A DNA stretch of 64,000 nucleotides, from contig NZ_CP132976.1 in NCBI RefSeq assembly GCF_030864005.1, positions 6,014,001-6,078,000 on the forward strand, read 5' to 3'. How positions within the stretch are numbered: position 1 is the first letter of the stretch; each line of letters begins with the position of its first letter. Position numbers and translations under genes: made by a program. Shown one piece after another: positions 5,056 through 36,761 of the stretch. The notes beneath the pieces are model-generated. The model saw only the letters and a list, made by a program, of their open reading frames with translations, was not told the DNA's origin and ran no database searches. Source of the stretch: Achromobacter seleniivolatilans (GTDB taxonomy: Bacteria; Pseudomonadota; Gammaproteobacteria; Burkholderiales; Burkholderiaceae_B).

Positions 5056-5092
5056 CGTGTGCGCCGCCTGGCGCGCAATGGATGATCAAACA

Positions 5093-8000
5093 ATGAAACG
5101 ATTGCTGGGCTTTCTATTTTCTTGGCGCTTTATTGCCGTCGTGGTCCTGGTCCTGCTTGCGGCGATGGTCTGGATGGTCGGGCCGATGGTCGACCTGGGC
5201 GGCCTGCGGCCGATGGATGCCGTCCTGGTTCGCGTGGTGGTGATCTGCCTGCTGCTTGCCGCGCTTGGCTTCTGGCTGATGGGCTGGCCGCTGTGGATCG
5301 TGTCGGTTGCCGCTATTTGCGCGCTGGTCTGGTTTGGCGGCCCCATGGCCGCCATCGGCGACCTGCGGCCTTTGGCAGAAGTGGGTGTTCGCGTTGGCGT
5401 GATTTCGGTCATCGTTCTGTTGACGGCCATATATGGCGTCTACCGGCTCTTCCAGCTGTTGCGCACTGACGAGGCCTTGTTGCGCCGCATCCTTACGCCC
5501 AAGAGCGAGACGGTAGACGCGGATGCGTCGTCCGAAGTGCGCGCCGTGGGGCTGGTGGTGTCGAAAGCGGTCGGTCAGCTCAAGCGTCTGCGCGGAGCGC
5601 CGCAAGGCTGGCGCCGCCTGCTGGAGAGCAAGCGGTACTTGTATGACCTTCCCTGGTACATGATCATCGGTACGCCGGGCGCAGGTAAGACCACTGCCAT
5701 TCTGAATTCAGGCCTGGATTTTCCCTTGGCCGAACAGATGGGCGTGGCCAGTCTGCCTGGGGCGGGCGGCACGGCGAACTGCGATTGGTGGTTCACCAAC
5801 GAAGCGGTGATGATCGACACGGCTGGCCGGTATAGCGACCAGAACGAGCAAGGCAATAACGACGCCGCGCAGGTAAATGCGGCCGAATGGCACGGGTTTC
5901 TTGGCGCCTTGCGCAAGCACCGCACGCAAGCGCCGATCAACGGCGTCATTCTGGCCGTGAGCGTGGCGGAATTGCTGGAGCATCCGGGCGATACCGGTGT
6001 GCTCGCCTCGATTCTGCGTGCTCGCTTGGCAGATCTGCGCCATGCCTTGGGCATCCGTTTCCCGGTCTATGTGCTTGTGACCAAGCTGGATCTGCTGCCC
6101 GGCTTTGACGAGTATTTCCAAGCGATGACGGCCGAAGGCCGTTCGCAGGTGTGGGGCTTTACGCTTGACTACGCTCGCAAGGAATCCAATGCGCAGCCGA
6201 TTGACCTGCGTGCTCGCTTCAATGATGAATTCGCTCTGCTGGCGCGGCGCCTGGAAGATGGTCTGAATGCGCGCCTGGTAGAGGAATACGGCTTGGCGCG
6301 CCGTAAGCGCTTGTACCCCTTGCCGCAAGAGTTTCGCAGTTTGGCAGTCCAGCTGACCGATCTGCTGTCGAAGGTATTTCTGGATTCGCGTTATGACGAC
6401 GTGCAGATCCAGCGCATGCTGCGCGGCGTCTATCTGACCAGCGCGCAACAGGCCGAGACGGTGGTGCACGCGGATCAGAACTCGCTGTTCGAACGCCTGC
6501 GCCGCACACTGCGCAGGCTTTATGGCGGGGAAGATGTCGCGATATCGTCGGGCGGACGCGAAGCGGCGCTGTTGGCGCATCGCAGCTATTTCCTGCGCAA
6601 TCTGTTCAAGCAGGTGATGATTCCCGAATCGCACTTGGTGCAGCCCAATCGCAAATGGATTCTGACGCGGGGCGCGGTGCGCTGGGGCGTGCATCTGGCG
6701 TCGGCGGCATTGGTGGTTTGGCTGGTGAGCGGGATGATGACCAGCCGCGCCAACAACGATCACTATCTGGCGGCGGTCGGCGAGAAGACCGCCGGGCTTA
6801 CGCAGCGTGCTCAGCAGGTTTCGGTAGGTGTGTTGGATTCCGATGGGGTGCGTCTGCTGACGGAGTCGGCCACGCTTGCGCAGGTTGACGGGCTGGATCT
6901 GGACGAGCCGCCGATGGACTATCGGTATGGCTTGTACGCAGCGCCGCCCGTGGATTCCGCTGCCCAGGCGACCTATGCGCGGATGTTGCGTAAGCATCTG
7001 CTGCCTGCGGTCGAGCAAACGCTAGAGGGGGTGCTGACCAAGCAGATAGCGAGCAAGGATGCCGAAGGCCTGTACGTCACGCTGGGCTTGTATCTGTCGT
7101 TGTTCGACACCCGGTATTTCGAGCCAGACGTTCTGGTCCCTTGGGTCGAGCAGCAATGGGCGCGCAGCCGTCGTGACAGCGAACGCGAGAAATCGCAATT
7201 GGCTGTGCATCTGCGCTCGTTGTTCGCGACGGCATACGAAGCGGGACCAGAAACCGAGTTGAATGCGGGCTTGGTCGAGCAAGCTCGGGCGTTGCTGCAA
7301 GAACGCCCGGACGCCACGCGCATGTACGACCGTGCGATCCGTTCGATGGAAGCCACCGCGCCGCAGCGGTTTACGCTGCAACAGGCGCTGGGCTCGGGCG
7401 ATGCTGCACTGTTTACCGACCACGCAGCAGGCGTCGATGCAGGCGTGCCGGGAATTTTCACCTACAACGGATACCGCGACGTATTCCGCAAGCGGATTGG
7501 CGGGTTCATCAATTCCGTATGGGCCCGTGAAAACTGGATGTTGGGACGCAAGTCCGAGGACGCAACGGCGCTGGCCAGTGTTCAAGATTCCAGGCGTGAT
7601 TGGGTCGACAAGGAACGGATCGAACGCGAAGTCTATACGCTCTACCTGCGCAACTATGCTGCGAACTGGGAGCGCTACATCAACCAGATCCGGCTTGTGT
7701 CGGCGTCGGAATCGGGTGAAGGGCCTTTGGCGGTGAATGTTGCGACGCTACGCGCGTTGGCGGCAGCGGATTCGCCTTTGGCGCGGCTGGGTTTTGCGCT
7801 GGCGCGGCAGACGACGCTGTCTTACGACCCTGATGCCGACAGCCCGGCAGCTGCCGCAGCGGCAAAGCTGGCGCTGGAATCGGCTCAACGCCGATCGTCG
7901 ACGGTGATGCGTGCAGCCGATGCGCTGGGCAAGATCGAGGTGGATTTTGACCAGGACAAGCTGACCGAAGAACTCGTGGACAAGCGTTTCTCGGCTTTGC

Positions 8001-8974
8001 GTGAGGTGGTCACGGGGTCGCCGACTCCTGGCCGTATTGATCCGGTCAAGCCTGGCGCGCAGATGCAACAGGTGCAGCAAATGGTCAACGACCAGTACAC
8101 GCAGCTGGCCGTGGCGAGCAGTGCGCTGGCTTCGTCCAGCATGCCGCCTGCGCAAGAGTCCAGCCCGATGCTGTTCCTGACGGCCGAGACGCTGCCCGCG
8201 CCATTCAAGCGCATTCTTGCCGGTCTGTCGCAACGCGCCGCCAATCAGCTGGGCCGCGAGACAGGGATTCTGTTGTCTGAACAGGTCAACTCCGCCGTGG
8301 GCGGTATTTGCCGCACGGCGATTTCCGGAAAGTTCCCGTTTGCCGATTCGGATCAGGAAGTGGACCCGGACGACTTCGTGCAGCTGTTTGCTGCAGGCGG
8401 CCTGTTCGATTCAACCTTCGAGCGATCGCTTGCGAGCTACGTCGACACCGGAGCAAGCCCGTGGCGCTACAAGCCGGCGAGCCCGGGCATGCGCCCCATT
8501 CAGGGTCCGGATTTGCAGCCGTTTGAGCGGGCCGCGGAAATACGCAGGGCGTTCTTTGACGGCACCAATGCCAAGGGTTTGAGCTACCGCTTGACGGGCC
8601 GTATTGTTTCCGTCGACCCGTCCATTACCGAGCTGTTGCTGGATGTGGACGGTGACAGCCTGCGCTATATGCACGGTCCGATTTCACCCTTCTCGTTCGC
8701 TTGGCCGGGACCGCGCAGCGGCAGCTATCTTGAGCTTGCTGCCCGGCCCCGAGTGACGGCTGAGTCGTCGTCGATACATCTGTCTGGTCCGTGGGCGCCT
8801 ATGCGCTTATTGCAGCAGGGCCATGTCACGGCCACGGCCTCGTCCGGCAGGGCGCTGGTGGACTTTGATTTCGATGGCCGCCATGCCGTGCTGGAGATTG
8901 GCGGCGGACGTAAAGGGAACTTCCTGACCGGGTCCCTGTTGCGAGGCTTTCGCTGTCCGGGAGGTTCGTCGTGA
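5093..8974 (+). CDS. tssM: T6SS membrane-complex protein TssM (IcmF family)
   Basis: TssM spans the inner membrane and periplasm, binding TssL and TssJ. The 1293-residue product has N-terminal membrane helices (residues about 10-125), a Walker A loop GTPGAGKT at 193-200, a DTAGRY motif at 242-247, a further helix near 528-545 (LASAALVVWLVSG) and a long periplasmic C-terminal part. The intact Walker motif suggests an NTPase-competent TssM. In-frame starts at 5057 (GTG) and 5078 (ATG) exist; 5093 was chosen because MKRLLGFLFS looks like the family N-terminus, but no strong ribosome site settles it. Residues about 26-62 and 79-115 resemble each other, as if a membrane hairpin was duplicated. The stop overlaps tagF. 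Confidence 0.95.
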   Translation: MKRLLGFLFSWRFIAVVVLVLLAAMVWMVGPMVDLGGLRPMDAVLVRVVVICLLLAALGFWLMGWPLWIVSVAAICALVWFGGPMAAIGDLRPLAEVGVRVGVISVIVLLTAIYGVYRLFQLLRTDEALLRRILTPKSETVDADASSEVRAVGLVVSKAVGQLKRLRGAPQGWRRLLESKRYLYDLPWYMIIGTPGAGKTTAILNSGLDFPLAEQMGVASLPGAGGTANCDWWFTNEAVMIDTAGRYSDQNEQGNNDAAQVNAAEWHGFLGALRKHRTQAPINGVILAVSVAELLEHPGDTGVLASILRARLADLRHALGIRFPVYVLVTKLDLLPGFDEYFQAMTAEGRSQVWGFTLDYARKESNAQPIDLRARFNDEFALLARRLEDGLNARLVEEYGLARRKRLYPLPQEFRSLAVQLTDLLSKVFLDSRYDDVQIQRMLRGVYLTSAQQAETVVHADQNSLFERLRRTLRRLYGGEDVAISSGGREAALLAHRSYFLRNLFKQVMIPESHLVQPNRKWILTRGAVRWGVHLASAALVVWLVSGMMTSRANNDHYLAAVGEKTAGLTQRAQQVSVGVLDSDGVRLLTESATLAQVDGLDLDEPPMDYRYGLYAAPPVDSAAQATYARMLRKHLLPAVEQTLEGVLTKQIASKDAEGLYVTLGLYLSLFDTRYFEPDVLVPWVEQQWARSRRDSEREKSQLAVHLRSLFATAYEAGPETELNAGLVEQARALLQERPDATRMYDRAIRSMEATAPQRFTLQQALGSGDAALFTDHAAGVDAGVPGIFTYNGYRDVFRKRIGGFINSVWARENWMLGRKSEDATALASVQDSRRDWVDKERIEREVYTLYLRNYAANWERYINQIRLVSASESGEGPLAVNVATLRALAAADSPLARLGFALARQTTLSYDPDADSPAAAAAAKLALESAQRRSSTVMRAADALGKIEVDFDQDKLTEELVDKRFSALREVVTGSPTPGRIDPVKPGAQMQQVQQMVNDQYTQLAVASSALASSSMPPAQESSPMLFLTAETLPAPFKRILAGLSQRAANQLGRETGILLSEQVNSAVGGICRTAISGKFPFADSDQEVDPDDFVQLFAAGGLFDSTFERSLASYVDTGASPWRYKPASPGMRPIQGPDLQPFERAAEIRRAFFDGTNAKGLSYRLTGRIVSVDPSITELLLDVDGDSLRYMHGPISPFSFAWPGPRSGSYLELAARPRVTAESSSIHLSGPWAPMRLLQQGHVTATASSGRALVDFDFDGRHAVLEIGGGRKGNFLTGSLLRGFRCPGGSS

Positions 8975-9678
8975 ACCTTCCACACCCGTGCTACTGGGGC
9001 AAGCTTCCTGCCTATGGCGACTTTGTGCGCCATGGCGCATCCAGCGACGTGCAGCAAGCATGGCGGCACTGGTTGCAGGGCCCATTTCAAGATGCCAGAC
9101 AGGCTTCGCGGTTGAAGGGCGGTTATGCCATGCCGTGGAGTTTCATTCTGACGCCGGGCTGCCTGGGGTTTTCGCGCGACCGTTATGTGGCGGGCGTGTA
9201 TGCGCCATCGCATGACAAGTTTGGCCGCGAGCATCCTTTCTTGATGTGGTTCCAACTGCCTGCGGCCACCGTGTCGGCACTGTTGAGTACGCACGACAAC
9301 GCCTTGTTCTGCTTGTCGCGGCTGGTGCGTGGCCACCTTTCGGCGCCGGCCTCCCCGGCCGCGCGGGGATCGGGGTTGGTCGACCAGATCAACCGGCTTT
9401 GGCGCGCAGGCGGCGCCGGAGTGTGGGGCGCGCTGCGGCGGCGCAAAGAAGCGCAGGACTTCACCGTAGCGCGAACTTGGGCTGATGGCTGGCCTTCCGA
9501 TACCAAAGCAGACGGCTTGGCGGGCGTGCCCTATGCGCCATGGCGGAACTGGCCTTCTATCGTGTTCGGGGACCCGGGCCAGGCGTGGTATTGGCAGCAG
9601 GATGTGCAAGCAGGGTATGTAAGTTTTTTATCGGTAACGGCCGCTGATCCGGCCGATCTCGCCAGAGGAAGTCAATGA
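8971..9678 (+). CDS. tagF: T6SS-associated protein TagF
   Basis: TagF proteins (DUF2094) act as post-translational regulators, restraining T6SS assembly in systems where they have been studied. The 235-residue product begins NLPHPCYWGKLPAYGDFVRH after the initiator Met, the TagF signature, and continues with MPWSFILTPGCLGFSRDRY and EHPFLMWFQLP. The GTG start overlaps the tssM stop (GTGA) and has a GGGAGG ribosome site at 8958-8963. The stop overlaps the vgrG start as ATGA. No PppA or PpkA partners are in the window, although a TagK-type protein is encoded in the opposite arm. Confidence 0.92.
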   Translation: MNLPHPCYWGKLPAYGDFVRHGASSDVQQAWRHWLQGPFQDARQASRLKGGYAMPWSFILTPGCLGFSRDRYVAGVYAPSHDKFGREHPFLMWFQLPAATVSALLSTHDNALFCLSRLVRGHLSAPASPAARGSGLVDQINRLWRAGGAGVWGALRRRKEAQDFTVARTWADGWPSDTKADGLAGVPYAPWRNWPSIVFGDPGQAWYWQQDVQAGYVSFLSVTAADPADLARGSQ

Positions 9679-12600
9679 TGGCCAACGAGAGTACTCCTGT
9701 TTTGAATCAAGCCCGCACGGTGCAAATCCGCGGCGCGGGCCTGCCGGCCGGGATGGGGCAGCAGCCCATGCTGCGCTTGCAGTCGCTGGATGGCCAGGAG
9801 CGTATGGGTGAGCTCTTCACCTATGAAGTATTCCTGCGTACGCCGAATGACACGCAGGTGCCATTGCCGGTGTCTGCAAACATCGATCTGAAAGAGATGA
9901 TCGGCAAAGAGCTGACGGTGTCAGTGCAGCTCTCTGATAACAGCCCGCGGGAAATCACCGGTTTGGTGGTCAAGGCTGGGTTTGTGCGCCAAGAGGGTGA
10001 CTACAACCTGTATCGCGTGTTGATGCGCCCGTGGTTGTGGCTGGCAACGCAAACGACTGACTTCAAGATCTTCCAGGATCAAAGCGTTGTCGAAATCATC
10101 GACCACGTATTGAAGGACTATCCGTACCCTGTGGAAAAGCGGCTGGACATCGAGAAATACGCGATTCAGCCGGAAAGCGATACCAACGAGCCGCGCAATT
10201 TCCAGGTGCAATACGGCGAAACGGACTTCGACTTCATTCAACGCTTGATGGAAGAATGGGGTATTTACTGGTTTTTCGAACACACGGAAGGCGCGCACCG
10301 TCTGGTGCTGTGTGATCACGTGGGCGCTCACCGTCCGCCGGACAGCCCGGCCTATCAGCAAGTCGCAATGCACGCCCAGGGCGGGCATTTTGACGTTGAT
10401 GTGTTCCGCCAGTTTGGCGTTGACGAGCGGCTGTTTCCGGGCCGGGTCGTGGTCGATGACTTTGACTTCACGCGTCCCCGCATGTTGTTGGCGACATCCA
10501 GCCATCAACCCCGCGATACGAGCTGGAGCGAAGGCGAAATCTTTGAATGGCCCGGTGACTACACTGACTCCAAACATGGCGCCTTGATCAGCCGGGTGCG
10601 GATGGAAGAACGCCGCGCGCGCGGCGTGCGTTCGCGCGGTTTTGGTAATGTGCGCGGGCTGGCAGCCGGACAGACGTTTGAGCTGACCGGGCACCTGTAC
10701 GACCGGGCCAATCGCGAGTACCTGGTGTTGGCCTCGCATCTGTCGCTGGCCGAGATTCCTGAAGAATCCGGCAGCGGTGTGATCTATGAATGCGTCAACG
10801 AAATGGAAGTGCAGCCTACGGACGAAGTGTTCCGTATGCCGCGCCAGACGCCCAAGCCCGTGGTCAGCGGCCCGCAGTCCGGGCTTGTGGTCGGCCCGAA
10901 AGGCAAAGAGGTCTGGACGGACGAGTTCGGCCGGGTAAAGGTACGCTTTCTGTGGGACCGCTACGCGCGTAACGATGCTTCCGACTCGTGTTGGGTGCGT
11001 GTGAACCAGGCCTGGGCCGGCGCGAATTTCGGGGGGATGTATATCCCCCGTATCGGCCAGGAAGTGGTTATCAGTTTCATGAACGGCGATCCCGATCGTC
11101 CGATCATTCTGGGTGGCTTGTACAACAGTGTCACCCGTCCGCCTTGGGATCTGCCTGCCGAAGCCACCAAGAGCGGCATCAAGACGCGCAGCTTGGAAGG
11201 CGGCAGGGAAAACTACAACGGCATCCGCTTTGAAGATAAGCGGGGCGCCGAAGAATTCTACGTGCAGGCCGAACGCAACATGGTGCGCCTGACCAAGGGC
11301 GCCGAGCTGCACAACGTTTCGCTGACCTACGGCCAAGTGGTGGGCTTGACTCACTCGACGGCCGTCGGCGGCATGCTGAGCAGCATGGTTGGCGGCGCCG
11401 CGTCCTACAACGTGGGCGGCGCGATGTCGACCCAGGTTGGGGGGATTTGCGGGCTGAATGTGGGCGGCGCTTATGCCGTCAACGTGGGCGCCATGGCCAA
11501 CCTCAACGTGGGCGCAGCGTACGCGCTGAATGCAGGAGCCGCTATTGCGATTACCTGCGGCAAAGCCTCTATCAATATGATGGCGGATGGCTCGATCACG
11601 ATTGCTGGCACGTCGATCAAAATGACGGGTACGCAAGAGGTCATCGTGCAAGGTACGCCTTTGCTGCTGAACCCTGGAGTCCAGGCGAAGGGCTTCGGTT
11701 TTGGTCTTGCCGCCGTCGTGCCGCCGCTGTTCGTACCGACGATTGGTATTCCGGACGGCGGTGGCGGAGATGGGGGCGTACGGCCTACTGATCCGCCGCC
11801 GCCAGGACCGACGCCGCCGGAGCCGACGCCGCCTGAACCGACGCCGCCTGAACCGACGCCGCCTGAGCCGACGCCGCCGGAACCGACGCCGCCGGAACCG
11901 ACGCCGCCGGAACCGACACCGCCAGAACCGACGCCGCCAGAACCGACGCCGCCAGAACCGACGCCGCCGGAGCCGACGCCGCCTGAGCCGACGCCGCCTG
12001 AGCCGACGCCGCCAGAACCGACGCCGCCTGAGCCGACGCCGCCGATCCCGACGCCGCCTGAACCGACGCCGCCGGAACCGACGCCGCCTGAACCGACGCC
12101 GCCTGAACCGACGCCGCCTGAACCGACGCCGCCGGAACCGACGCCGCCGGAACCGACGCCGCCAGAACCGACGCCGCCAGAACCGACGCCGCCAGAACCG
12201 ACGCCGCCAGAACCGACGCCGCCGGAACCGACGCCGCCAGAGCCGACGCCGCCAGAGCCGACGCCGCCTGAACCGACGCCGCCGGAGCCGACGCCGCCGG
12301 AGCCGACGCCGCCTGAACCGACGCCGCCAGAGCCGACGCCGCCTGAACCGACGCCGCCTGAACCGACGCCGCCAGAGCCGACGCCGCCTGAACCGACGCC
12401 GCCGGAGCCGACGCCGCCAGAACCGACGCCGCCGGAGCCGACGCCGCCGGAACCGACGCCGCCAGAACCGACGCCGCCGGAACCGACGCCGCCTGAACCG
12501 ACGCCGCCTGAACCGACGCCGCCTGAACCGACGCCGCCTGAACCGACGCCGCCTGAACCGACGCCGCCGGAGCCGACGCCGCCAGAACCGACGCCGCCAG

Positions 12601-13274
12601 AACCGACGCCGCCGGAGCCGACGCCGCCGGAACCGACGCCGCCAGAACCGACGCCGCCTGAACCGACGCCGCCTGAACCGACGCCGCCGGAACCGACGCC
12701 GCCGGAACCGACGCCGCCAGAACCGACGCCGCCGGAACCGACGCCGCCGGAACCGACGCCGCCGGAACCGACGCCGCCAGAACCGACGCCGCCAGAACCG
12801 ACGCCGCCTGAACCGACGCCGCCTGAGCCGACGCCGCCGGAACCGACGCCGCCAGAACCGACGCCGCCAGAACCGACGCCGCCGGAACCGACGCCGCCGG
12901 AACCGACGCCGCCGGAGCCGACGCCGCCGGAGCCGACGCCGCCAGAGCCGACGCCGCCTGAACCGACGCCGCCGGAGCCGACGCCGCCAGAGCCGACGCC
13001 GCCGGAGCCGACGCCGCCAGAACCGACGCCGCCGGAGCCGACGCCGCCAGAACCGACGCCGCCTGAACCGACGCCGCCTGAGCCGACGCCGCCGGAGCCG
13101 ACGCCGCCTGAGCCGACGCCGCCGGAGCCGACGCCGCCGGAGCCGACGCCGCCGGAGCCGACGCCGCCGGAGCCGACGCCGCCGGAGCCGACGCCGCCTG
13201 AACCGACGCCGCCAGCGCCGACGCCACCGGCGCCAACGCCTGAGCCACCGACTCCAACTGAGTCGGAACTCTGA
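9675..13274 (+). CDS. vgrG: VgrG spike protein with a giant PTPPE-repeat C-terminal extension
   Basis: VgrG trimerises into the spike that caps the Hcp tube. Residues 1 to about 480 are the usual gp27/gp5-like body (LQSLDGQERMGELFTYEV near the N-terminus; MYIPRIGQEVVISFMNGDPD in the OB fold). A needle-like beta-helix with repeated VGG/NVG units follows (about 570-650). From residue 712 the protein becomes a pure PTPPE repeat: 93 units, then two PTPPA units and a short tail ending TESEL. A normal VgrG ends near residue 650-700, so almost 500 residues are added. No catalytic domain follows, so the tail is not a conventional evolved-VgrG effector. It may be an adaptor, a stalk or a glycosylated segment. 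ATG codons at 9675 and 9678 are both usable. Confidence 0.95.
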   Translation: MMANESTPVLNQARTVQIRGAGLPAGMGQQPMLRLQSLDGQERMGELFTYEVFLRTPNDTQVPLPVSANIDLKEMIGKELTVSVQLSDNSPREITGLVVKAGFVRQEGDYNLYRVLMRPWLWLATQTTDFKIFQDQSVVEIIDHVLKDYPYPVEKRLDIEKYAIQPESDTNEPRNFQVQYGETDFDFIQRLMEEWGIYWFFEHTEGAHRLVLCDHVGAHRPPDSPAYQQVAMHAQGGHFDVDVFRQFGVDERLFPGRVVVDDFDFTRPRMLLATSSHQPRDTSWSEGEIFEWPGDYTDSKHGALISRVRMEERRARGVRSRGFGNVRGLAAGQTFELTGHLYDRANREYLVLASHLSLAEIPEESGSGVIYECVNEMEVQPTDEVFRMPRQTPKPVVSGPQSGLVVGPKGKEVWTDEFGRVKVRFLWDRYARNDASDSCWVRVNQAWAGANFGGMYIPRIGQEVVISFMNGDPDRPIILGGLYNSVTRPPWDLPAEATKSGIKTRSLEGGRENYNGIRFEDKRGAEEFYVQAERNMVRLTKGAELHNVSLTYGQVVGLTHSTAVGGMLSSMVGGAASYNVGGAMSTQVGGICGLNVGGAYAVNVGAMANLNVGAAYALNAGAAIAITCGKASINMMADGSITIAGTSIKMTGTQEVIVQGTPLLLNPGVQAKGFGFGLAAVVPPLFVPTIGIPDGGGGDGGVRPTDPPPPGPTPPEPTPPEPTPPEPTPPEPTPPEPTPPEPTPPEPTPPEPTPPEPTPPEPTPPEPTPPEPTPPEPTPPEPTPPEPTPPIPTPPEPTPPEPTPPEPTPPEPTPPEPTPPEPTPPEPTPPEPTPPEPTPPEPTPPEPTPPEPTPPEPTPPEPTPPEPTPPEPTPPEPTPPEPTPPEPTPPEPTPPEPTPPEPTPPEPTPPEPTPPEPTPPEPTPPEPTPPEPTPPEPTPPEPTPPEPTPPEPTPPEPTPPEPTPPEPTPPEPTPPEPTPPEPTPPEPTPPEPTPPEPTPPEPTPPEPTPPEPTPPEPTPPEPTPPEPTPPEPTPPEPTPPEPTPPEPTPPEPTPPEPTPPEPTPPEPTPPEPTPPEPTPPEPTPPEPTPPEPTPPEPTPPEPTPPEPTPPEPTPPEPTPPEPTPPEPTPPEPTPPEPTPPEPTPPEPTPPEPTPPEPTPPEPTPPEPTPPEPTPPEPTPPAPTPPAPTPEPPTPTESEL
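11808..13232 (+). repeat. Tandem 15-bp repeat array (95 units) within vgrG
   Basis: The unit is CCGACGCCGCC-N-GA-R, encoding Pro-Thr-Pro-Pro-Glu. Counting from 11808 in steps of 15, there are 93 consecutive units up to 13202, then two units with Ala in place of Glu. The only amino-acid change inside the 93 is one Ile at 12045-12047. Variation is almost confined to two synonymous third positions (CCG/CCT/CCA and GAA/GAG), plus one ACA for ACG near 11919. This near-identity points to recent expansion by slippage or recombination. Because the unit is a multiple of three, copy-number changes alter protein length without breaking the frame. Confidence 0.98.
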
Positions 13275-13292
13275 GTGTTGCTTAAGTAACCC

Positions 13293-13320
13293 GCCGGACG
13301 GCTTATGCCGTCCGGCTGTT
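13293..13320 (+). terminator. Perfect 10-bp hairpin between vgrG and the PAAR gene
   Basis: The arms GCCGGACGGC (13293-13302) and GCCGTCCGGC (13307-13316) are perfectly complementary around a TTAT tetraloop and are followed by TGTTT. It resembles a weak intrinsic terminator. It would lower expression of the PAAR and rhs genes relative to vgrG, or protect the vgrG 3' end. The ribosome site of the PAAR gene (AGGAGAG) begins only a few bases further on. Confidence 0.6.
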
Positions 13321-13334
13321 TCCAGGAGAGAACA

Positions 13335-13607
13335 ATGGCAATTTTTCCTGCAGTGCGCATGGGCGACAAGATCGCTCACGGCGGCAGCATCTTGACCGGG
13401 TCACCGGACGTATTCATCAACGATTTACCGGCTGCCTTCAAAGGCGCTTCCGCAGTCTGCTGTGGACTTCATATCTCTGCGCAAGTGGTCGCGGTGGGAG
13501 CGCCGCTGGTCTATATCAACGGCTTGAACGCAGCACATATGGCGTGTTGTTCGTCTTGTGGATCGCCGGCAGCGACGGCATCCCCTGATGTGTTTATTGG
13601 CGAATGA
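13335..13607 (+). CDS. PAAR-domain spike-tip protein
   Basis: PAAR proteins cap the VgrG spike with a sharp cone and carry effectors. The 90-residue product starts MAIFPAVRMGDKIAHGGSIL and contains the PAAR-type stretches GSPDVFINDLPAAF and VYINGLNAAHMACC. It is rich in His and Cys, consistent with the zinc site at the PAAR tip. It is a stand-alone PAAR with no extension. The ATG at 13335 follows an AGGAGAG ribosome site. The gene lies between vgrG and rhs, so it is the probable tip for this VgrG and may connect it to the Rhs protein encoded 10 bp downstream. Confidence 0.93.
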   Translation: MAIFPAVRMGDKIAHGGSILTGSPDVFINDLPAAFKGASAVCCGLHISAQVVAVGAPLVYINGLNAAHMACCSSCGSPAATASPDVFIGE

Positions 13608-13617
13608 GCGATAAAGA

Positions 13618-16600
13618 ATGACGGCGATTGGCGGACTTGCGGGACGCTTGACCGCGTTTCCCGGTGAACGGATTGAAAAGTTGAACCTGGCTCCGCCGCA
13701 TGGCTGGTGGCGGAGAAGCGAGGCCGGCGTGCTGCTGCGGCGCTTGCCTGCGGCCGCGCTTGCAGGCTTGGGACCGGGTGGCATCGACATCCGTAGCGGC
13801 CATTTGCTGCGCGATGCTGAGAAGCAGCGCGACGTGTTACCCGCCGGGCCCATGGCGCCCGGGGTCGCGCGCTTCTACGACAGCCGCATAACGCGGTCGG
13901 GAAACTTTGGCCCGGGCTGGCGTGCGCTTTGGGAGATATGCCTGCAAGCGCGTGGCGATACGCTGGCCTATCACGACGAGTGGGGCCGCGTGTTGGTGTT
14001 GCCGCGCCCGCAACCGGGGCACCAGGTCATTCTTGTGGCGGAATCACTGACGCTGGCGTGTTTGGAAGACGGCAGTTTTATAGTGGCGGATTTGCAACCA
14101 GCCTATCGCCACTTCGGGCCGTTCGACGAGACCGGCACTGCCAGTCTGGCCGAGATTGAATATTTGGATGGCAGCCGTACAACGGTGCGGCGCAACCAAG
14201 CAGGAAAATTGCTTGCGCTGGTGAGCCGGACGGAAGCGGGAGTGTGGTTTAGCCTGGACGCGCAAGATCGCATCCAGGCCGTCGCGCGCGGGCCGCAGTC
14301 GAGTCCCAGCGCCACCTTTGTTTACGGCGCTGATGGCAGACTTGCCCGCGTCGAACAAGGGCGGGGCAAGGTAGTCCGGCGTTATGGATACCAGGATGGC
14401 AAGCTGTCCGAAATCACCGATCGCCACGGAACAAGTTCCATCCGGTGGCGCGGCGCGGGTTCGGCAAGCCAGATTGCGGGGCTGCGCAGCCCGGACGGTC
14501 AGATGTGGCTGCTACACCGCGACGAGAGCGCGGGAGCCGTGCGTCTCGAAGGTTCGGATGGTAGTGAACTTCGATGGCGGTTCGACACGAACGGCCGAGT
14601 GACCGAATATCAGGATACGACGGGTGCGGTCTACGGCGTGGAATACAGCGCATTGGGACGTCCGGCAGGCGTAGAGACGCCGCTTGGGCGCTACGCCTTT
14701 GAATACGATGATTTTGGCCGTATCGCGCAAGAGACGGGGCCTGGGGGCACGTTGCGCCGGGTGAGCTATGCCTACGCCACCCGGCGGCCCATGATGCTGG
14801 TACGTGAGAGCGGGCGCCATTGGTTCTGGCTGCGCGACGCCTGTTTGCGCCCTGTGCAGCGGCGTGCGCCGGACGGCGATGTCACCGACTATGCCCATGA
14901 CCCCGCGACTGCGCCTCAAATGCGCAGTCAGACCCCCGCGGGCGAAATCCGCCACACCTACGATGCACTAGGCCGACTCAGCCTTCGGGAAATGCCCGAT
15001 GGCGGCATCGCGCGTTACGCATGGACTGCGACCGGGCAATTGCGCGCTAGTGGCGGCACGGGCATGCCGCTGGAGATGCGAGAACAGGATGAAGCAGGCG
15101 GCCTGCGTATCACGCGAGGCAGTGGTTCCCGGATGCGTCTCGCGGCTTACAACGATCAGGGTGACCTCCTGTCCCTGGCCAACGCGGCCAACCATAAGCG
15201 CTATTGGCACTATGACGCGCTGGGACGGCTGGAAATGTTGATTGACGAAGAGGGCGTCATGACACGCTACTCCCGCGAGCGGCAAGCGCAGGATGTGACT
15301 GTGCAAGGTCCGGGCGGCGGCATCCAGCGTTGGGTCAGGGACGCAGGCGGCCGCGCATTAGCGCGGCAGGATGCCGACGGTGTCGTAACGGAGCATCGCT
15401 TTGATCGAAATGGACGTGTCACAGATATCGTAGAAGCCGCTGGCGACAGCCGTGTGACGACGGTTCTGAGCTATGACGGCGCTGGCCGTCTGGCGGAGCG
15501 CAAGCGAGCCGGCATCCTCTGGAGCTACGAACACGATGCGCAAGGCAGGCTGACAAGCTTGTGCGCTGATGGAGCGGCGGAGTCTTTGGCACCAGGTGCG
15601 TTGGCCTTTGCTTATGGCGAGGCCGGACTGGTCGACGCCGAGACGAGCGCGCAGGGTACGTGGATCGTGACGCGTGACGACACGGGTTTTCCGATAAGGT
15701 TTCACTTACCTTGCGGGCTGGTATTGATGATGGCTCGCGATGCCAGCCAAAGTCTGACTCATCTGGGTTACTCCTATGGTGGGGAATCCGTTGTACTTGT
15801 CTCTCTTCGTCATGACGCCTCTGGCCGGGAGACCCAACGGGTCGGAGCGGGATTGCAACGAGTGATCAATCGCGATGAGGACCACGGGCTGCGGATCGAA
15901 CACGTGACGCGTTTGTCTGATCCCGGGACCGCCATTGAGAGCCTGGCCCGGCGTGAACGCTGGGACGTTGCTGGCCGTCTGGTCGAAGAAGAAGATGCTC
16001 AGGGCCATCGTCTGCACGACTACGACCGGCGCGGGCAACTGGTACGCAGCATTGGCGGGGCCGGCATGCTCTATACAACATGGGACTCAGGCGGAAACAT
16101 CATCGCGCTGGATAGCGCGGGATGGGCTCCGCCGCGCTCGACCCCGGATCATCGAATCGCTCAGGTCGGCAATATTCAATTGTCATACGACAAATGGGGC
16201 CGAGTGGTGCGACGCGACGGTCCATTGGTAAAAGCCCAATACACTTGGGACGCTGCCGGCCGTCTGGCTGTGGCGCAGACCAATGGGGTGCGAGTCAGCT
16301 ACCTTTACGACGCCGCCGGCCGTCTCGCGGGCCGAAGGGTCGGGACGGAAGAAGAGGGGTTTCCGCACACCTTCTTGTGGGAAGGGCTGCGGCTGCTTCA
16401 AGAGACCACGCCTTTCCGGCGAGTTACGTATATTTACGGGCCCGCCCTGCCTGGGTGGCAATCGTTCGCGCCAGTCGCATGCTTGATTCAAAAGCGCGCC
16501 AACGTGCAATCCGACTGGTCGGCGCCTGAGCCGCAGCATCTGTTTACTAATGCTGCGGGGCGGGTACGGGCTGTTGTATCGGAGGATGGCCAGAAGATAT

Positions 16601-16950
16601 GGCAGGTGCCGGCTCGGCCATGGGGAGAGCGTCAAGGCATTGCAGCGGAAGAGTCTTCGGCGTTGCCCGGGTTCGCCGGGCAATGGATGGACCCCGATAC
16701 CCGGCTCTGCTGGAACGGTTTGCGTTTCTATGATCCCTTTACCGGACGCTATTTGAGTCCGAACAGGGATGCGCCACCCGGAGTCAGTCCCTACCGCTAT
16801 GTAATGGCACCGGCGTCCCAAGCGAATCCGTTGGGACAGGCTGTGATGGGGGAGGGAGTCGCCGCGCGGGCCGGAGTGAATATCCGGATGCTGCCGCCGG
16901 TGGAGTGGGCGGGGGCAGAGCGCCCCGCCCCTTGTCTGCCGGGAGTCTAA
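13618..16950 (+). CDS. Rhs/YD-repeat protein without a recognisable C-terminal toxin
   Basis: Rhs proteins form a beta-barrel shell that encloses a C-terminal toxin and are commonly delivered by T6SS spikes. The 1110-residue product has many YD-type repeats (YDALGRLSLREMPDG, YDALGRLEMLIDE, YTWDAAGRLAVAQ, YLYDAAGRLAGRR). It ends with a degenerate core-closing segment (FAGQWMDPDTRLCWNGLRFY, DPFTGRYLSPNRDAPPG). The usual DPxG self-cleavage site is replaced by NPLG, and only 37 residues follow it, with no domain resembling a toxin. No immunity gene follows; the next gene is on the other strand 10 bp away. It may be a truncated relic or a structural Rhs. It belongs with vgrG and the PAAR gene by position. 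Confidence 0.85.
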   Translation: MTAIGGLAGRLTAFPGERIEKLNLAPPHGWWRRSEAGVLLRRLPAAALAGLGPGGIDIRSGHLLRDAEKQRDVLPAGPMAPGVARFYDSRITRSGNFGPGWRALWEICLQARGDTLAYHDEWGRVLVLPRPQPGHQVILVAESLTLACLEDGSFIVADLQPAYRHFGPFDETGTASLAEIEYLDGSRTTVRRNQAGKLLALVSRTEAGVWFSLDAQDRIQAVARGPQSSPSATFVYGADGRLARVEQGRGKVVRRYGYQDGKLSEITDRHGTSSIRWRGAGSASQIAGLRSPDGQMWLLHRDESAGAVRLEGSDGSELRWRFDTNGRVTEYQDTTGAVYGVEYSALGRPAGVETPLGRYAFEYDDFGRIAQETGPGGTLRRVSYAYATRRPMMLVRESGRHWFWLRDACLRPVQRRAPDGDVTDYAHDPATAPQMRSQTPAGEIRHTYDALGRLSLREMPDGGIARYAWTATGQLRASGGTGMPLEMREQDEAGGLRITRGSGSRMRLAAYNDQGDLLSLANAANHKRYWHYDALGRLEMLIDEEGVMTRYSRERQAQDVTVQGPGGGIQRWVRDAGGRALARQDADGVVTEHRFDRNGRVTDIVEAAGDSRVTTVLSYDGAGRLAERKRAGILWSYEHDAQGRLTSLCADGAAESLAPGALAFAYGEAGLVDAETSAQGTWIVTRDDTGFPIRFHLPCGLVLMMARDASQSLTHLGYSYGGESVVLVSLRHDASGRETQRVGAGLQRVINRDEDHGLRIEHVTRLSDPGTAIESLARRERWDVAGRLVEEEDAQGHRLHDYDRRGQLVRSIGGAGMLYTTWDSGGNIIALDSAGWAPPRSTPDHRIAQVGNIQLSYDKWGRVVRRDGPLVKAQYTWDAAGRLAVAQTNGVRVSYLYDAAGRLAGRRVGTEEEGFPHTFLWEGLRLLQETTPFRRVTYIYGPALPGWQSFAPVACLIQKRANVQSDWSAPEPQHLFTNAAGRVRAVVSEDGQKIWQVPARPWGERQGIAAEESSALPGFAGQWMDPDTRLCWNGLRFYDPFTGRYLSPNRDAPPGVSPYRYVMAPASQANPLGQAVMGEGVAARAGVNIRMLPPVEWAGAERPAPCLPGV

Positions 16951-16960
16951 GCGCCCAGGC

Positions 16961-18334
16961 TTAAGCCCCGACGCCTTTTTCGAACTGAGTCACGACTTGC
17001 GCATCTGCATCCAGCAAGCTGACTTGGTACATGCTGGCGGCGGCTTCGCCCAAATCACTCAGGAATTCCACACGCAGTTCATACATGTCGTCGCGGCAAC
17101 GTGCTCGCGCGGCTTGGATGTCTTCTATTTCTTCATGCAGCACAGAGCCATCCGCGCGCAAGGCCCGCACGCGGCACTGGACAACGCTTTCACAATGCAC
17201 GATGTCCAGAGAATCTTTAGGGACGACGATGTGTAGAAAATGAGGACGCCTTAGCGTGCTGTTCCATACTGCGAGATCGGATTTCTGCGCGCCGGCCACA
17301 GGCTCAATATGCGCCGATGCTTCGGGTTGGATGGCACGTTCGCGGAAGCAGATGCCCGCATAGGCCTCGTAGTCTTCCAAGCTGCGAACATTGCCAAAAC
17401 CGTACTCACTGTCTTGCGGGGATGGGACGTGGCTCTCGCCTTGATCCATGCCAAACAAGGCGCGATTGCGCGCCAGCGAGCGCTCGTTTCGAGCCCACCA
17501 GACTTCGCTGACAATTCCCGCGTCGCGAGCAGCCCCGTTGTGATCGTCCCAGATCTTGACGCGTCCTTTACGTGCGTATTCATGCCAGGCCAAGCAGCGG
17601 TGCGGGTGGTACAAGTCATAGCCGTGGGTGAAGGCGCGCACCGCCAGCGATATCTCTTCGCCATGAAAAAAGTAATCTGGATCGTGGCGGACCTCGCGGG
17701 CAAACGAGCCGTCGGCGAAGGTGAAGTGTCCGCTGTAGAAGCGCGCACGCACGGGGGCTTGCAGCGTCTCCCAGTCCGGAAGTGGAAACCCGGTGAAGAG
17801 AATAGCGCCTTCGGGAATGAAGCGAAGAAAACGCATGCCGTGCGGTCGAACCGGCGTAGAGCGGTCCACGCCAGGTTCGGACGGCGTGTAGCTAGGCAAA
17901 TACGCGGTCAACAGCGGCTTCGGGCTGTGGGCCCGAAGTTGTTCCGTCATGCCTATCAGTTGGGTATCCCAGTGCTGAACGAAACGGTGATGTGAATCCA
18001 ATTGCAGGGTGTAGGCTTCGTCCTGATAATCCTGCTGAATCAGGTTGCGGGCCCAGCAGGCCCCTTTCGACTGTTCATACGGAACGTCGATCAAATCGAT
18101 GCGAGCCCCCAGATAGTGGAACGTGTGCCGGGTAAATGGCGCTTGCGGCTGCAATTGCCATTGTTCAAAACGGTTAGAAAAAAACATACCGATTTGTTCA
18201 TCCGGGGCATGTTGCCAGCACACGACGACACGCAGGTTTTCCGGACGCTGCGCGCGCTCGATAAGATCGTGCAAGGTCGGTATGAGTTCGGGGTCGCGAT
18301 AGCTTGCGATCTGAACAAAGATGCTTTGAGTCAT
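16961..18334 (-). CDS. Skp1-type GlcNAc-transferase-like glycosyltransferase (GlcNAc/GT60-like)
   Basis: The 457-residue product resembles the GlcNAc family typified by the eukaryotic Skp1 hydroxyproline GlcNAc-transferase, which transfers GlcNAc from UDP-GlcNAc to a polypeptide. Visible marks are an N-terminal IFVQIASYRDPELIPTL, WARNLIQQDY leading to the metal-site-like LQLDSHHRF (DSH at 113-115), GHFTFADGSF (202-211), FFHGEEISLAVR (222-233) and LAWHEY (248-253). The last ~150 residues are less typical. There is no signal peptide, so it is probably cytoplasmic. It is the last gene of the minus-strand T6SS arm, 16 bp after the adhesin-like gene, and ends 10 bp from rhs. Nearby candidate acceptors are the Thr/Pro-rich VgrG tail and the adhesin. 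An upstream start at 18388 would overlap the adhesin gene. The acceptor is inferred. Confidence 0.75.
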   Translation of the reverse strand: MTQSIFVQIASYRDPELIPTLHDLIERAQRPENLRVVVCWQHAPDEQIGMFFSNRFEQWQLQPQAPFTRHTFHYLGARIDLIDVPYEQSKGACWARNLIQQDYQDEAYTLQLDSHHRFVQHWDTQLIGMTEQLRAHSPKPLLTAYLPSYTPSEPGVDRSTPVRPHGMRFLRFIPEGAILFTGFPLPDWETLQAPVRARFYSGHFTFADGSFAREVRHDPDYFFHGEEISLAVRAFTHGYDLYHPHRCLAWHEYARKGRVKIWDDHNGAARDAGIVSEVWWARNERSLARNRALFGMDQGESHVPSPQDSEYGFGNVRSLEDYEAYAGICFRERAIQPEASAHIEPVAGAQKSDLAVWNSTLRRPHFLHIVVPKDSLDIVHCESVVQCRVRALRADGSVLHEEIEDIQAARARCRDDMYELRVEFLSDLGEAAASMYQVSLLDADAQVVTQFEKGVGA

Positions 18335-18350
18335 GTCGATAAGAGCGGAA

Positions 18351-19376
18351 TTAGAGAAAAGACAGCGTGACGACTGCCTGGGCATCAATGAGACCTGGCA
18401 TTGGCGTCAAACTATTAACGCGTAGGACAGTAGCTTCCAGGTTGAAGGTTGCGTTAAACCCAGGCGAGGTCTGGGTCAGCGTGCTGGTGCTGTCCTGGGG
18501 CCTTAAAACATTCTGACTGCCGATGTCGCGCAACCGGATCGCCAGATTGGTGGCGCCGCTATTCTTGATGTAGCTAGGTTGATCTGTATCTGGTGTTGCG
18601 GTAAGCGAGGCGGAAATGGTGTTGGGCGCAGTGGGGCCGTCGCACGCAACACTAATCGTGACAGGCTTGGTGGGACCCCTAAGTGGAGATACATCCTTAG
18701 GACCAAAGGGACCAAAGTCCACAAACATCGCCGAGTCGCTAGCAACCCAGCAGTGGGGCAGGACTCGCAAGGTGACCGGGTCTGCGTTAAACAATACGGT
18801 CGTCTGACCGTCACCCCCCGCGACAATCTTTGCGACGGGGCCAAGGGCCACGGTCGACTGACTGAGCATGTCACCTGTCTTGACCAAATCGACCGAAAAC
18901 GAAGCGCCTGCCACCAGTGAAATAAAAGCGGGCGTTCGGCCACCTACTTGGGTATACGGGTTGATGCTAGGAAACACCACCTGAGAACCACTGGCCCGCG
19001 TGTAGATAAAGCGATACCCGACACCCTGAATGCCCGTGGGATAAACGCCGGAGGGTTCCCCCGCATCTCCTGATGCCAAGTCGTATCGGATCGTGCCGGC
19101 CATGTCCTCGCAGGCAACGATATAGGAGCCTGCTTCAGTGGGAGTCATCCCGGTGACAATGGTCTCCCCGACAGCCAGGCCAGGATCGACGTCGATGATG
19201 GCCTGGCCAAAAGAGACCTGACGTTCAGAATAGGGCACAAGCGGGCCGGCAGACAGGTTCTGATCAACCCATTCAGTTGTGTCGGTATCGAGGTTGATCT
19301 TCCGGCATTCGGCCATCGCCGTTTGCGCTTGAAAAAGCGACGCTGCAAGCAGCGCCGCGTATAGGATTTTCTTCAT
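18351..19376 (-). CDS. Fimbrial adhesin-like secreted protein
   Basis: The 341-residue product has a clear signal peptide (MKKILYAALLAASLFQAQ, cleavage near AMA-EC). A unique N-terminal half follows, then a C-terminal part resembling the fimbrial (FimA/FimH pilin) domain: a Cys pair (CWVASDS and VACDGPT), a strand-rich core and a beta-strand end (AQAVVTLSFL). Two-domain layouts like this are typical of pilus-tip adhesins. There are no chaperone, usher or major-pilin genes in the window, which makes it an orphan. It lies between tssA and the glycosyltransferase gene on the same strand (43 and 16 bp gaps), so all three are probably co-transcribed. It could instead be a T6SS-linked surface protein. 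Confidence 0.65.
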   Translation of the reverse strand: MKKILYAALLAASLFQAQTAMAECRKINLDTDTTEWVDQNLSAGPLVPYSERQVSFGQAIIDVDPGLAVGETIVTGMTPTEAGSYIVACEDMAGTIRYDLASGDAGEPSGVYPTGIQGVGYRFIYTRASGSQVVFPSINPYTQVGGRTPAFISLVAGASFSVDLVKTGDMLSQSTVALGPVAKIVAGGDGQTTVLFNADPVTLRVLPHCWVASDSAMFVDFGPFGPKDVSPLRGPTKPVTISVACDGPTAPNTISASLTATPDTDQPSYIKNSGATNLAIRLRDIGSQNVLRPQDSTSTLTQTSPGFNATFNLEATVLRVNSLTPMPGLIDAQAVVTLSFL

Positions 19377-19419: not shown

Positions 19420-20466
19420 TTATTCCTGGGGCGCATCCCATTGCTCTAGAAGATCCGGCGGCACCATCCGGTGCAGTTCGGAAAAGCGCCGGCCGACCAT
19501 GCGCTCGGCCTGCTTGATCAAGACGCTGACAGGGCTGCTGGGTTCGTGGGTTTCAAACCAGAGCCGGGCGATTCGCATGTTTTCCAACATGTCCCAGCGC
19601 GTGGTGACTGGCGCGCTGGCGGCGGCCGCCACGCGTGCAGGGGCGGACGTTACGGGCGCCGGCGCACCGGTTGCGGGAGGCGGCGTTTCACCGCTATCGA
19701 CCGCTACGGGTTCGACGACCTCCACGGGCACGGCGTGCATCGACGCAGGAGCGTCAAACGGTTCCAGCAAGCGCCCAAGCAAATTCAGATCGGGCGCCGT
19801 CGAGCCCAGTTGTTCCGCGGCCCAGGCATTGATGCGCGCGAGCGCGGCCGCAGCTGCGGCCAGCGCCATCGCGGCTGGATCGCGCCGGTCGTGCAGGTCG
19901 GAGACCAGGCGCAACGCTGACTCAGGGGCGATCGTGTCTTTGCCGCGGGTCTTCGCCAGCGCGCGTTCAATATCGCGAATCTGCAACGCCGTACCCATGC
20001 TCTTGGGCAAGGCAATGTCGCGCACGTCGGCGACCAAGCCATCGGGGTCTGCCAGCGCGCTAAGCACATTGGCGACAATCAGCGGATCGTGCTCGCCGTC
20101 CAGCAATGGCACGGGGTTGAGCGCATCGGGGTACGTGCGCAGCATGGCGTCAATCAATGCCAGGGCTGCGCGCAGGCCGGCAGCGCCGGCCTGACGAGCT
20201 CGGCAGCGAGCCAGTATCACCAGCAGGCGCAGATCCTTGCTGCGCGCAAGCAACGCGCGGCAATCGCGTTCCGCTTCGCTCCAGTTGATGGGCGTGGCGG
20301 CGTCGACGAAGTCACCGTATTGCGCATCGCCGCGTGTGGCGACGTTGGCTTGCAGCACGACAAAGTCCGGGTCGTACTCCAGATCCGGGCCGCAGGCCAG
20401 GTCGCCATCCAGCGGTGTCAGCAGGCCCGCTTCCGGGCCCACATCGGTGTCCAGGTGAGTGCTCAT
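19420..20466 (-). CDS. tssA: T6SS protein TssA (ImpA domain)
   Basis: TssA proteins prime or cap sheath assembly at the baseplate. The 348-residue product has the ImpA N-terminal domain in its first ~130 residues (GPDLEYDPDFVVLQ, WSEAERDCRALLARSKDLRL, YPDALNPVPLLDG). A central helical, Ala/Pro-rich stretch follows, and a short C-terminal module closes the protein (MLENMRIARLWFETHEPSSP, IKQAERMVGRRF). That C-terminus is the short-TssA type. The gene starts 11 bp after tssG ends on the minus strand, within the tagK-tagJ-tssE-F-G-A arm. Confidence 0.92.
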   Translation of the reverse strand: MSTHLDTDVGPEAGLLTPLDGDLACGPDLEYDPDFVVLQANVATRGDAQYGDFVDAATPINWSEAERDCRALLARSKDLRLLVILARCRARQAGAAGLRAALALIDAMLRTYPDALNPVPLLDGEHDPLIVANVLSALADPDGLVADVRDIALPKSMGTALQIRDIERALAKTRGKDTIAPESALRLVSDLHDRRDPAAMALAAAAAALARINAWAAEQLGSTAPDLNLLGRLLEPFDAPASMHAVPVEVVEPVAVDSGETPPPATGAPAPVTSAPARVAAAASAPVTTRWDMLENMRIARLWFETHEPSSPVSVLIKQAERMVGRRFSELHRMVPPDLLEQWDAPQE

Positions 20467-21524: not shown

Positions 21525-21526
21525 GG

Positions 21527-23408: not shown

Positions 23409-23921
23409 TCAGAAGCCGTCCCGGCCGTCTATCGAGGCGTGCGAGGATTCCAGGTCGTACCTGCTTTGCACCAGAAACTCCAGCGGATAAGGCGACCAGT
23501 GCATAAGCGCCTTGATCTCGAGTTGAATGACGTTGTAGGTGCCGCGCCGCGACTGAGGCAGCACGCGCACCGACAAGGTCTCGGGGATCAAGCGGGGCTC
23601 GAATGTCACGATGGTGTCGCGCACCAGCTTTTCGATGGTGGCCGGACTGTGACTGGCGCGCAGCGTGCCAGACAGCGGCGGCAGCCCATAGTTCACGGCC
23701 GAACGCGCTGCCTGGGGATATCGTGCCGTGTCCAGCGCCGCACCCAGATTGCAGGTATTGAGCAGCAAGGCCAGATCGCGCTGGATCAGCCGTTGCATGC
23801 CCGCAGCATTGGGCGAATACGCGTCCGGGCGTTCATGCTTGGAGCGCGGTTCGTTATCGCGAAGGCGGTCGAATAGCGAAGGTAGGTAGCGGACTTTCGG
23901 GAACGCCTCACGCGCATTCAA
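23409..23921 (-). CDS. tssE: T6SS baseplate subunit TssE (gp25-like)
   Basis: TssE is the gp25-like baseplate protein that nucleates the sheath. The 170-residue product has the gp25-like region LIQRDLALLLNTCN, the segment VNYGLPPLSG, the Glu-bearing VTFEPRLIPETLSVRVLP and a strand-rich C-terminus. Its start overlaps the tagJ 3' end by 14 bp, and its stop is 1 bp from the tssF start. Order and length fit the family. Confidence 0.94.
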   Translation of the reverse strand: MNAREAFPKVRYLPSLFDRLRDNEPRSKHERPDAYSPNAAGMQRLIQRDLALLLNTCNLGAALDTARYPQAARSAVNYGLPPLSGTLRASHSPATIEKLVRDTIVTFEPRLIPETLSVRVLPQSRRGTYNVIQLEIKALMHWSPYPLEFLVQSRYDLESSHASIDGRDGF

Positions 23922-31088: not shown

Positions 31089-31150
31089 TATTTGATGAAT
31101 TTGTTTCAACTCTAGGCATCTCGCGATGCATTGCGTAGACATGTAAAGAG

Positions 31151-36620: not shown

Positions 36621-36761
36621 GAGGAACTGGCTTCCTGAAGCAGGGTGGTTGATATAACGACCACCTTCGCCACAGGCTTGGTGATCTCTCATACGCTTAA
36701 TCGAATGAGAGCGAAAAAAGTAGAAGCGGAAACGAGATATTTTTTTTGTGGCGCGCAGAAT

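Follow-up and report, generated by a model that had tools for sequence, protein, structure and literature searches.

A predicted PF11397 GlcNAc-transferase and a Pro/Thr-rich VgrG tail in one type VI secretion cluster: a candidate for spike glycosylation

Dedicated glycosylation of bacterial adhesins is known from the serine-rich repeat proteins and from HMW/autotransporter heptosylation, and the acceptor of the Trypanosoma cruzi polypeptide α-N-acetylglucosamine (GlcNAc) transferase is a Pro/Thr-rich, mucin-like repeat. This enzyme and the Skp1-modifying enzyme Gnt1 are both classed in glycosyltransferase family GT60 in PMC6939170, and a DxH motif is stated for GT27/GT60 in PMC7185993. Here, we analysed a stretch of 64,000 nucleotides from Achromobacter seleniivolatilans (contig NZ_CP132976.1, positions 6,014,001–6,078,000; the whole stretch is called the window, and positions are counted from its first letter), which carries a type VI secretion system (T6SS) cluster. 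In this cluster, a VgrG spike protein with a long tail of PTPPE repeats is encoded together with a member of Pfam family PF11397, which we take to correspond to GT60. We propose, from sequence comparison, that the latter is a dedicated cytosolic polypeptide GlcNAc-transferase that probably glycosylates the tail of its cognate VgrG, which would make this tail mucin-like.

The transferase, the repeat tail and the adhesin

The transferase gene (16961–18334, minus strand) is present as a single copy in the source genome. Its product matches PF11397 over the full length of the family (E 5.1e-81, profile positions 1–350 of 352), and the GlcNAc-transferase that a preliminary description of the window had predicted inside the T6SS cluster is in this respect borne out as a GT60-like candidate. 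The likely start is Met19 of the open reading frame (ORF), at about 18334, because the database copy has 457 amino acids. The DxH metal motif is present as DSH, where D131 and H133 are each kept in 102 of the 106 aligned enzymes (four gaps each), and the C-terminal metal-binding His, H269, is kept in 103/106 (two gaps and one Gln). The enzyme has no signal peptide, as judged by eye, and a PDB sequence search with it gave nothing convincing.

The vgrG gene (tssI; 9675–13274, plus strand), the proposed source of the substrate, encodes a protein of 1199 amino acids with the Pfam domains GPD, gp5_trimer_C and base_V, and its match to TIGR03361 (510.6 bits, cut-off 186.35) identifies a TssI/VgrG core. 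The C-terminal tail is encoded by a 15-bp tandem array (11793–13230, plus strand; Tandem Repeats Finder: 95.9 copies, 92% matches, score 2190). We counted 92 exact PTPPE units, together with one internal PTPPI and, at the end of the array, two PTPPA, so that 92–93 is right for the 93 repeats reported earlier. Residues 701–1199 contain 99 Thr, 295 Pro, 95 Glu and a single Ser. Six synonymous DNA forms code for 91 of the 92 exact units, which is the pattern expected if selection keeps the PTPPE peptide repeat. The array is also overlain by long antisense ORFs (e.g. 9921–13379), which look like by-products of the repeat. The tail, when set beside those of related VgrGs, has the hallmarks of a mucin-like (Pro/Thr/Ser, PTS) domain, that is, a tandem Pro/Ser/Thr-rich repeat of constant composition and variable sequence and length. 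A second VgrG of the source genome (L140, G000:C1:1556452-1558434; 50% identical) has no tail, and one in-frame TAG was reported in it.

Between tssA and the transferase gene lies a gene for a two-domain fimbrial adhesin (18351–19376, minus strand; likely start about 19376) with a signal peptide, judged by eye, an MrkD/Abp-like receptor-binding domain (PF22003, MrkDrd) and a pilin domain (PF00419, Fimbrial). Its profile matches were 3u4k (9e-12), Abp2D (4.5e-10) and FimF (0.004). The combination of a receptor-binding and a pilin domain is that of chaperone-usher tip adhesins; in the adhesin set, Fimbrial was recognised in 13/13 and MrkDrd in 8/13. A Pfam scan of 30 window ORFs found no chaperone or usher, and the adhesin locus is not classed as a chaperone-usher pilus. 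In genome G1037, the adhesin is encoded on another draft contig and not between tssA and the enzyme, and the tail is kept. We considered this genome as a natural loss of the adhesin and rejected it, since the adhesin was found elsewhere: its position differs, its presence does not.

Co-occurrence in sampled genomes

We sampled clusters by TssF, the marker for the cluster type (tssF, 21527–23407, minus strand; PF05947), which avoids selection by the enzyme. The sample comprised 43 genomes from the genus of the source, together with 117 from one further genus and 60 from another; these two are probably Paraburkholderia and Cupriavidus, and the order is taken as probably Burkholderiales. We observed the transferase and the adhesin in 14/14 clusters with a TssF of at least 66% (177 genomes of the two other genera, with every such cluster retrieved). 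A VgrG was in reach in 12 of these clusters, and all 12 had a Pro/Ser/Thr tandem tail. In two genomes the stretch around the enzyme held no adjacent VgrG: in G562 (L134), a VgrG on the same contig has a tail of collagen-like (GPT)n triplets, and in G116, a VgrG on another contig has an SPSASPEP tail. Clusters with a TssF of 60% or less (33 clusters from 30 genomes, a fetched subset of such clusters) had neither transferase nor adhesin (0/33 each by tblastn, about 20 kb per stretch), and none of their 12 VgrGs (11 loci) had a tail.

When loci were found through the enzyme, 19 of the 47 (L004–L021 and L023) had tssF-tssG-tssA upstream. These 19 came from Paraburkholderia, Burkholderia, Cupriavidus, Trinickia and one Neisseriaceae bacterium. 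A clear adhesin match was located between tssA and the enzyme in 18 of them, the ORF of the Neisseriaceae bacterium matching only weakly, and, within the reach of the stretches, most of the loci face a convergent rhs-PAAR-vgrG. One such locus is on plasmid pBMC401 of Burkholderia ambifaria MC40-6, where the VgrG tail is made of PPPPSSE repeats. As 9 of the 14 TssF-sampled clusters coincide with enzyme-found loci, the two samples are not additive.

The tails were scored by a fixed criterion, chosen after tails had been seen. Among the distinct cognate VgrGs of Burkholderiales with readable tails, 22/23 passed, a count without G601, where the contig stops short of the tail, and without the additional VgrG of G116 that lacks a tail. 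The sole failure (L021) was narrow, and PPPSDE repeats are visible in it. Over both sampled groups, the repeat units are unrelated to each other (PTPPE, PPPSEE, TPDE, PPQTEE, STPEP, AASDEEP, TETP, PPPPSSE and GPT), and Pro together with Ser/Thr is found throughout; the AASDEEP tail has just 15% Pro. The unit is thus replaced while Pro and Ser/Thr are kept. More distant VgrGs fetched from transferase-positive genomes, including the source genome, had no such tails.

Within the genus of the source, the enzyme was found in 2/43 genomes, and only these two had a TssF above 47%. The second of them has a TssF 92% identical and a VgrG core 83% identical to those of the window, with a wholly different tail unit. 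Fourteen sister-type clusters of this genus had neither transferase nor adhesin in the fetched stretch, and the single VgrG among them that was readable to its end had no tail.

A sample of the phylum gave PF11397 in 28/398 genomes, of which G649 alone had the arrangement tssF-tssG-tssA-Fimbrial-transferase. Its family is probably Enterobacteriaceae, because similar-tailed VgrG homologues come from Erwinia, Pantoea, Serratia and Morganella. In this second family, PF11397 was found in 16/198 genomes, and the VgrG subtype (at least 476 bits; next match 380) was present in the same 16 genomes and in G1146, apparently from the same draw. The tail criterion was passed by 14 of the 16 transferase-positive genomes; in the other two, the contig ends within TETPTETPT (L253) or the tail is short, at 65 amino acids, with SPTESP (L260). 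G1146, the sole genome with the subtype and without the enzyme, had no PF11397 gene, no tail and no adhesin match, and the 5.9 kb that follow its tssA matched none of the T6SS queries. Some VgrG match was present in 95 transferase-less genomes of the family; tails were read in the best VgrGs of 14 of them, G1146 included, and none was found (0/14; Fisher 8e-7, ignoring phylogeny).

The adhesin search in the second family matched 16/16 transferase-positive genomes, 13 of which had supplied the query rows, so that only three are independent finds. Among the transferase-less genomes, 13/16 had no adhesin match and three had weak ones (best 1.3e-9). The adhesins of Burkholderiales and of the second family are homologous (hhalign 99.7%), and they are much poorer in Pro/Ser/Thr than the tails (13–21 P+S+T in the best 40 residues). 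Enzyme, tail and adhesin therefore co-occur near-strictly in the sampled clusters.

PF11397 genes outside T6SS clusters also lie near Pro/Ser/Thr tracts in part of the cases. In a first sample, a strict tract was located within 2.5 kb of the enzyme in 7/28 loci (one of them, L050, scored in the antisense frame of a PTDTPTDA-repeat gene); two further loci had a tract between two enzyme copies, one more had a tract at 2.5–5 kb and another two had one at 5–10 kb. Tract coverage in this sample was 2.1% within 2.5 kb and 0.2% beyond. In the controls, tracts were found in 1/32 same-genome regions and 2/47 transferase-less T6SS regions, or, when cut into 5-kb pieces, in 1/82 and 1/185, with one extra tract in an uncounted end piece. 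The PF11397 gene of Phyllobacterium zundukense (L249; 7986–8927) lies ∼355 bp after the gene of an RTX calcium-binding protein with PTPEPTPQYTPSPTAN repeats and is followed by type I secretion genes. On an Azospirillum thermophilum plasmid (L247), the enzyme adjoins an extracellular contractile cluster with (PT)n tracts in two overlapping sheath-region ORFs, and in a Sphingomonas metagenome-assembled genome (L034), which has an extracellular contractile cluster with baseplate genes, a Pro/Thr-rich protein of 1202 amino acids immediately precedes the enzyme. We also noted that Burkholderia dolosa (L022) has a second PF11397 gene away from its T6SS, and 6 kb from it is a 420-amino-acid ORF in which a PA-IIL fucose-binding lectin domain is accompanied by a PSPTPSPNPTPSP linker.

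In a tree of 76 rows (without the nested rows L022 and L246 and without long or near-duplicate rows), the T6SS enzymes form two clades among the non-T6SS enzymes. Two independent origins of the T6SS enzymes were considered and dropped, as the one-clade test gave a p-AU (approximately unbiased test) of 0.478; a single origin is thus not rejected, and we claim no independent recruitment.

Proposed tail glycosylation and its rivals

VgrG is assembled in the cytosol and the enzyme has no signal peptide; therefore, the two would meet in the cytosol. We propose that a GT60-type enzyme with a DxH motif would place N-acetylhexosamine, most likely α-GlcNAc from UDP-GlcNAc, on Ser/Thr of the tail. The modification would be of the O-GlcNAc type and would precede the loading of the spike. 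Each VgrG trimer could then carry three densely glycosylated, stiff and hydrophilic tails around the PAAR/Rhs tip, in the manner of bacterial mucin brushes. The sugar, the acceptor residue and the timing are what we infer for such a system, and the tail might likewise affect firing, protease resistance and contact with the target.

That the enzyme decorates the VgrG tail had already been suggested in the preliminary description. Its co-occurrence test was passed in both sampled groups, and the contrary outcome it had named, occurrence of the enzyme with the adhesin and without repeat-bearing VgrGs, did not arise; the choice of the tail over the adhesin, however, does not follow from this test, as the adhesin co-occurs equally.

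Several observations weigh against glycosylation of the tail. The adhesin accompanies the enzyme as strictly as the tail does, so co-occurrence does not by itself remove the adhesin from consideration as the substrate, and a GPTPP stretch is conserved in the pilin domain of the Burkholderiales adhesins. The T6SS clusters that have the tail, the enzyme and the adhesin are related, and the genomes are therefore not independent; by the p-AU given above, a single origin of the T6SS enzymes is not rejected. The transferase-positive genome G116 also carries a tail-less VgrG (49% identity). In the wider VgrG family, 47 of the 120 closest homologues listed pass the tail criterion (13/26 at 53% identity or more, 9/24 at 45–53%, 25/66 at 40–45% and 0/4 below), and seven of the top 26 have other C-termini (P0130, at 84%, P0145, P0148, P0152, P0153, P0155 and P0186); some of the failing homologues have partial or short tails that are yet visibly Pro/Ser/Thr-rich. 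As counts of the tail alone, these figures neither support nor break the link between enzyme and tail. Outside the T6SS, a strict tract was within 2.5 kb in only 4/28 loci of the second sample, which is dominated by one family and in which at least two loci (L174 and L176) repeat the first sample. No Pro/Ser/Thr tract was found within 8 kb of the enzyme in the Granulicella and Methylobacterium loci, nor a strict one within 12 kb on a Klebsiella aerogenes plasmid (L246), which has no T6SS genes in the stretch. The link of PF11397 to Pro/Ser/Thr tracts outside the T6SS is real but far from universal.

The adhesin could itself be the substrate, glycosylated before Sec export, with the VgrG tail being only a mark of the lineage. 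Several observations would suit this: only 16 bp separate the end of the adhesin gene from the likely start of the enzyme, the two genes are found in 14/14 TssF-sampled clusters and in 16/16 transferase-positive genomes of the second family (three independent finds), the adhesin is unmatched in 13/16 and weakly matched in 3 of the transferase-less genomes of that family, and a chaperone-usher fimbrial operon lies 6.7 kb from the Klebsiella plasmid copy of the enzyme. The Burkholderiales adhesins moreover keep the GPTPP stretch and reach 17–21 P+S+T in their best 40 residues. However, the adhesins consist by profile of folded receptor-binding and pilin domains without a tandem Pro/Ser/Thr repeat, the adhesin and the enzyme of G1037 are on different draft contigs with the tail kept, and the non-T6SS relatives of the enzyme adjoin Pro/Ser/Thr tracts; we therefore regard the adhesin as an unlikely substrate. 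Slightly less likely still is that enzyme, adhesin and tail have no biochemical link and travel together as passengers, through inheritance in one T6SS lineage; the tail would then be no more than a spacer, and the enzyme would have another target. All the T6SS cases do come from related clusters, a single origin of their enzymes is compatible with the p-AU, and half of the VgrG homologues at 53% identity or more (13/26, counted by tail alone) fail the tail criterion. Mere passengers do not account well for the joint lack of enzyme, adhesin and tail in G1146, for the persistence of Ser/Thr through complete replacement of the repeat unit, or for the ties of the PF11397 family to Pro/Ser/Thr tracts outside the T6SS.

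A Skp1-like route, in which the tail proline is hydroxylated and GlcNAc is then added to hydroxyproline, is suggested by the Pro-rich tails and by the GT60 enzyme Gnt1, which acts on hydroxyproline according to PMC6939170. We consider this route very improbable: no prolyl hydroxylase was recognised among the 30 window ORFs scanned, the search being confined to the window and not extended to the rest of the genome, and the AASDEEP tail is only 15% Pro. A hydroxyproline acceptor, which the preliminary description had brought in with the Skp1 family, is also not required, since Ser or Thr is present in the units of the related VgrG tails that were read. Equally improbable is that the enzyme is a T6SS effector that glycosylates a protein of the target cell; its gene does lie inside the cluster and is convergent with rhs, but the enzyme is not fused to any T6SS part, its gene follows tssF-tssG-tssA-adhesin on one strand, and its family is also found outside the T6SS.

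Glycosylation of the VgrG tail leaves a possible part for the adhesin. MrkD binds collagen, a Pro-rich repeat, and by analogy the MrkD/Abp resemblance of the adhesin makes a role as a reader thinkable. Tentatively, then, one might envisage a writer-substrate-reader system, in which GT60 writes mucin-type O-glycans on VgrG tails and the co-occurring MrkD/Abp-type adhesin acts as a lectin-like reader, binding the Pro-rich glycosylated tail while the spike passes or is displayed. On a wider view, mucin-type O-glycosylation by bacterial GT60 enzymes might serve the T6SS and extracellular contractile systems, where the Pro/Ser/Thr tracts are found in the spike, in the sheath region or in a protein next to the baseplate.

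Cluster layout and comparison with known systems

Pfam and TIGR profile scans showed that the window contains most of one T6SS cluster, with tssC incomplete at the window edge. The plus strand reads tssC, hcp, tssJ, tssK, tssL, tssM (5057–8974; IcmF domains), tagF (8971–9678; PF09867), vgrG, the gene of a PAAR spike tip protein (13305–13607; PF05488) and rhs (13618–16950; Rhs core protein with PF05593 and Rhs_assc_core). Convergent to rhs, the minus strand carries the PF11397 gene, the adhesin gene, tssA (19420–20466; ImpA_N), tssG (20478–21563; PF06996), tssF, tssE (23409–23921; gp25-like, PF04965) and tagJ/impE (23908–24750; PF07024). Just past the cluster, we observed a 1263-amino-acid autotransporter (27378–31169; PF03797, AC_1) and a set of TonB receptor, FecR and extracytoplasmic function sigma factor at 34179–38317.

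In the Rhs protein (1110 amino acids), Rhs_assc_core spans 1000–1073, which leaves 37 amino acids at the C-terminus, and its ORF ends 10 bp from the end of the transferase ORF. Among 22 transferase-positive loci, the Rhs protein runs on for 73–104 amino acids from where its final core motif starts, and the Rhs end is at most 167 bp from the end of the enzyme gene, where an immunity gene would not fit. No toxin domain was recognised after the Rhs core in the window or in these 22 loci. The short C-termini and the lack of space for an immunity gene indicate that the machine may carry no Rhs toxin of the usual kind; what matters as cargo of this T6SS may be the spike.

Neither a glycosylated VgrG nor a T6SS-linked PF11397 enzyme was described among the listed titles and abstract openings of open-licence PMC articles, a scope outside which most subscription journals fall. 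If the proposal is true, the spike of this T6SS would be glycosylated and a bacterial branch of GT60 would have a role, and substrates could be read from genomes by a simple rule: where PF11397 is encoded, look nearby for a gene whose product has Pro/Ser/Thr repeats. It would then have to be asked how a contractile machine lets a mucin-like brush through, or holds one in place.

With the GT60 enzymes Skp1 Gnt1 and T. cruzi α-GlcNAc-transferase, the enzyme of the window shares PF11397 by profile, the DxH motif and the C-terminal His, and in the case of the T. cruzi enzyme the proposed acceptor would be similar too, being a Pro/Thr-rich mucin-like repeat. In contrast to them, it is bacterial, is encoded in a T6SS baseplate operon, has a secretion-machine spike as its proposed substrate and has a predicted activity. 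The VgrG resembles other VgrG/TssI proteins with C-terminal extensions in its complete core and in the adjoining PAAR and Rhs genes; its extension, however, is a Pro/Ser/Thr tandem tail with no recognised effector domain that co-occurs with a transferase. The adhesin has the receptor-binding and pilin domains of the two-domain fimbrial tip adhesins MrkD and Abp, whereas its gene lies between tssA and the transferase gene in a window with no chaperone or usher among the scanned ORFs. As in bacterial adhesin glycosylation, the gene of a dedicated, predicted cytosolic transferase is close to that of a repeat-rich protein that is exported or surface-located; the enzyme here belongs to GT60 rather than to other glycosyltransferase families, and the putative carrier belongs to a contractile injection machine.

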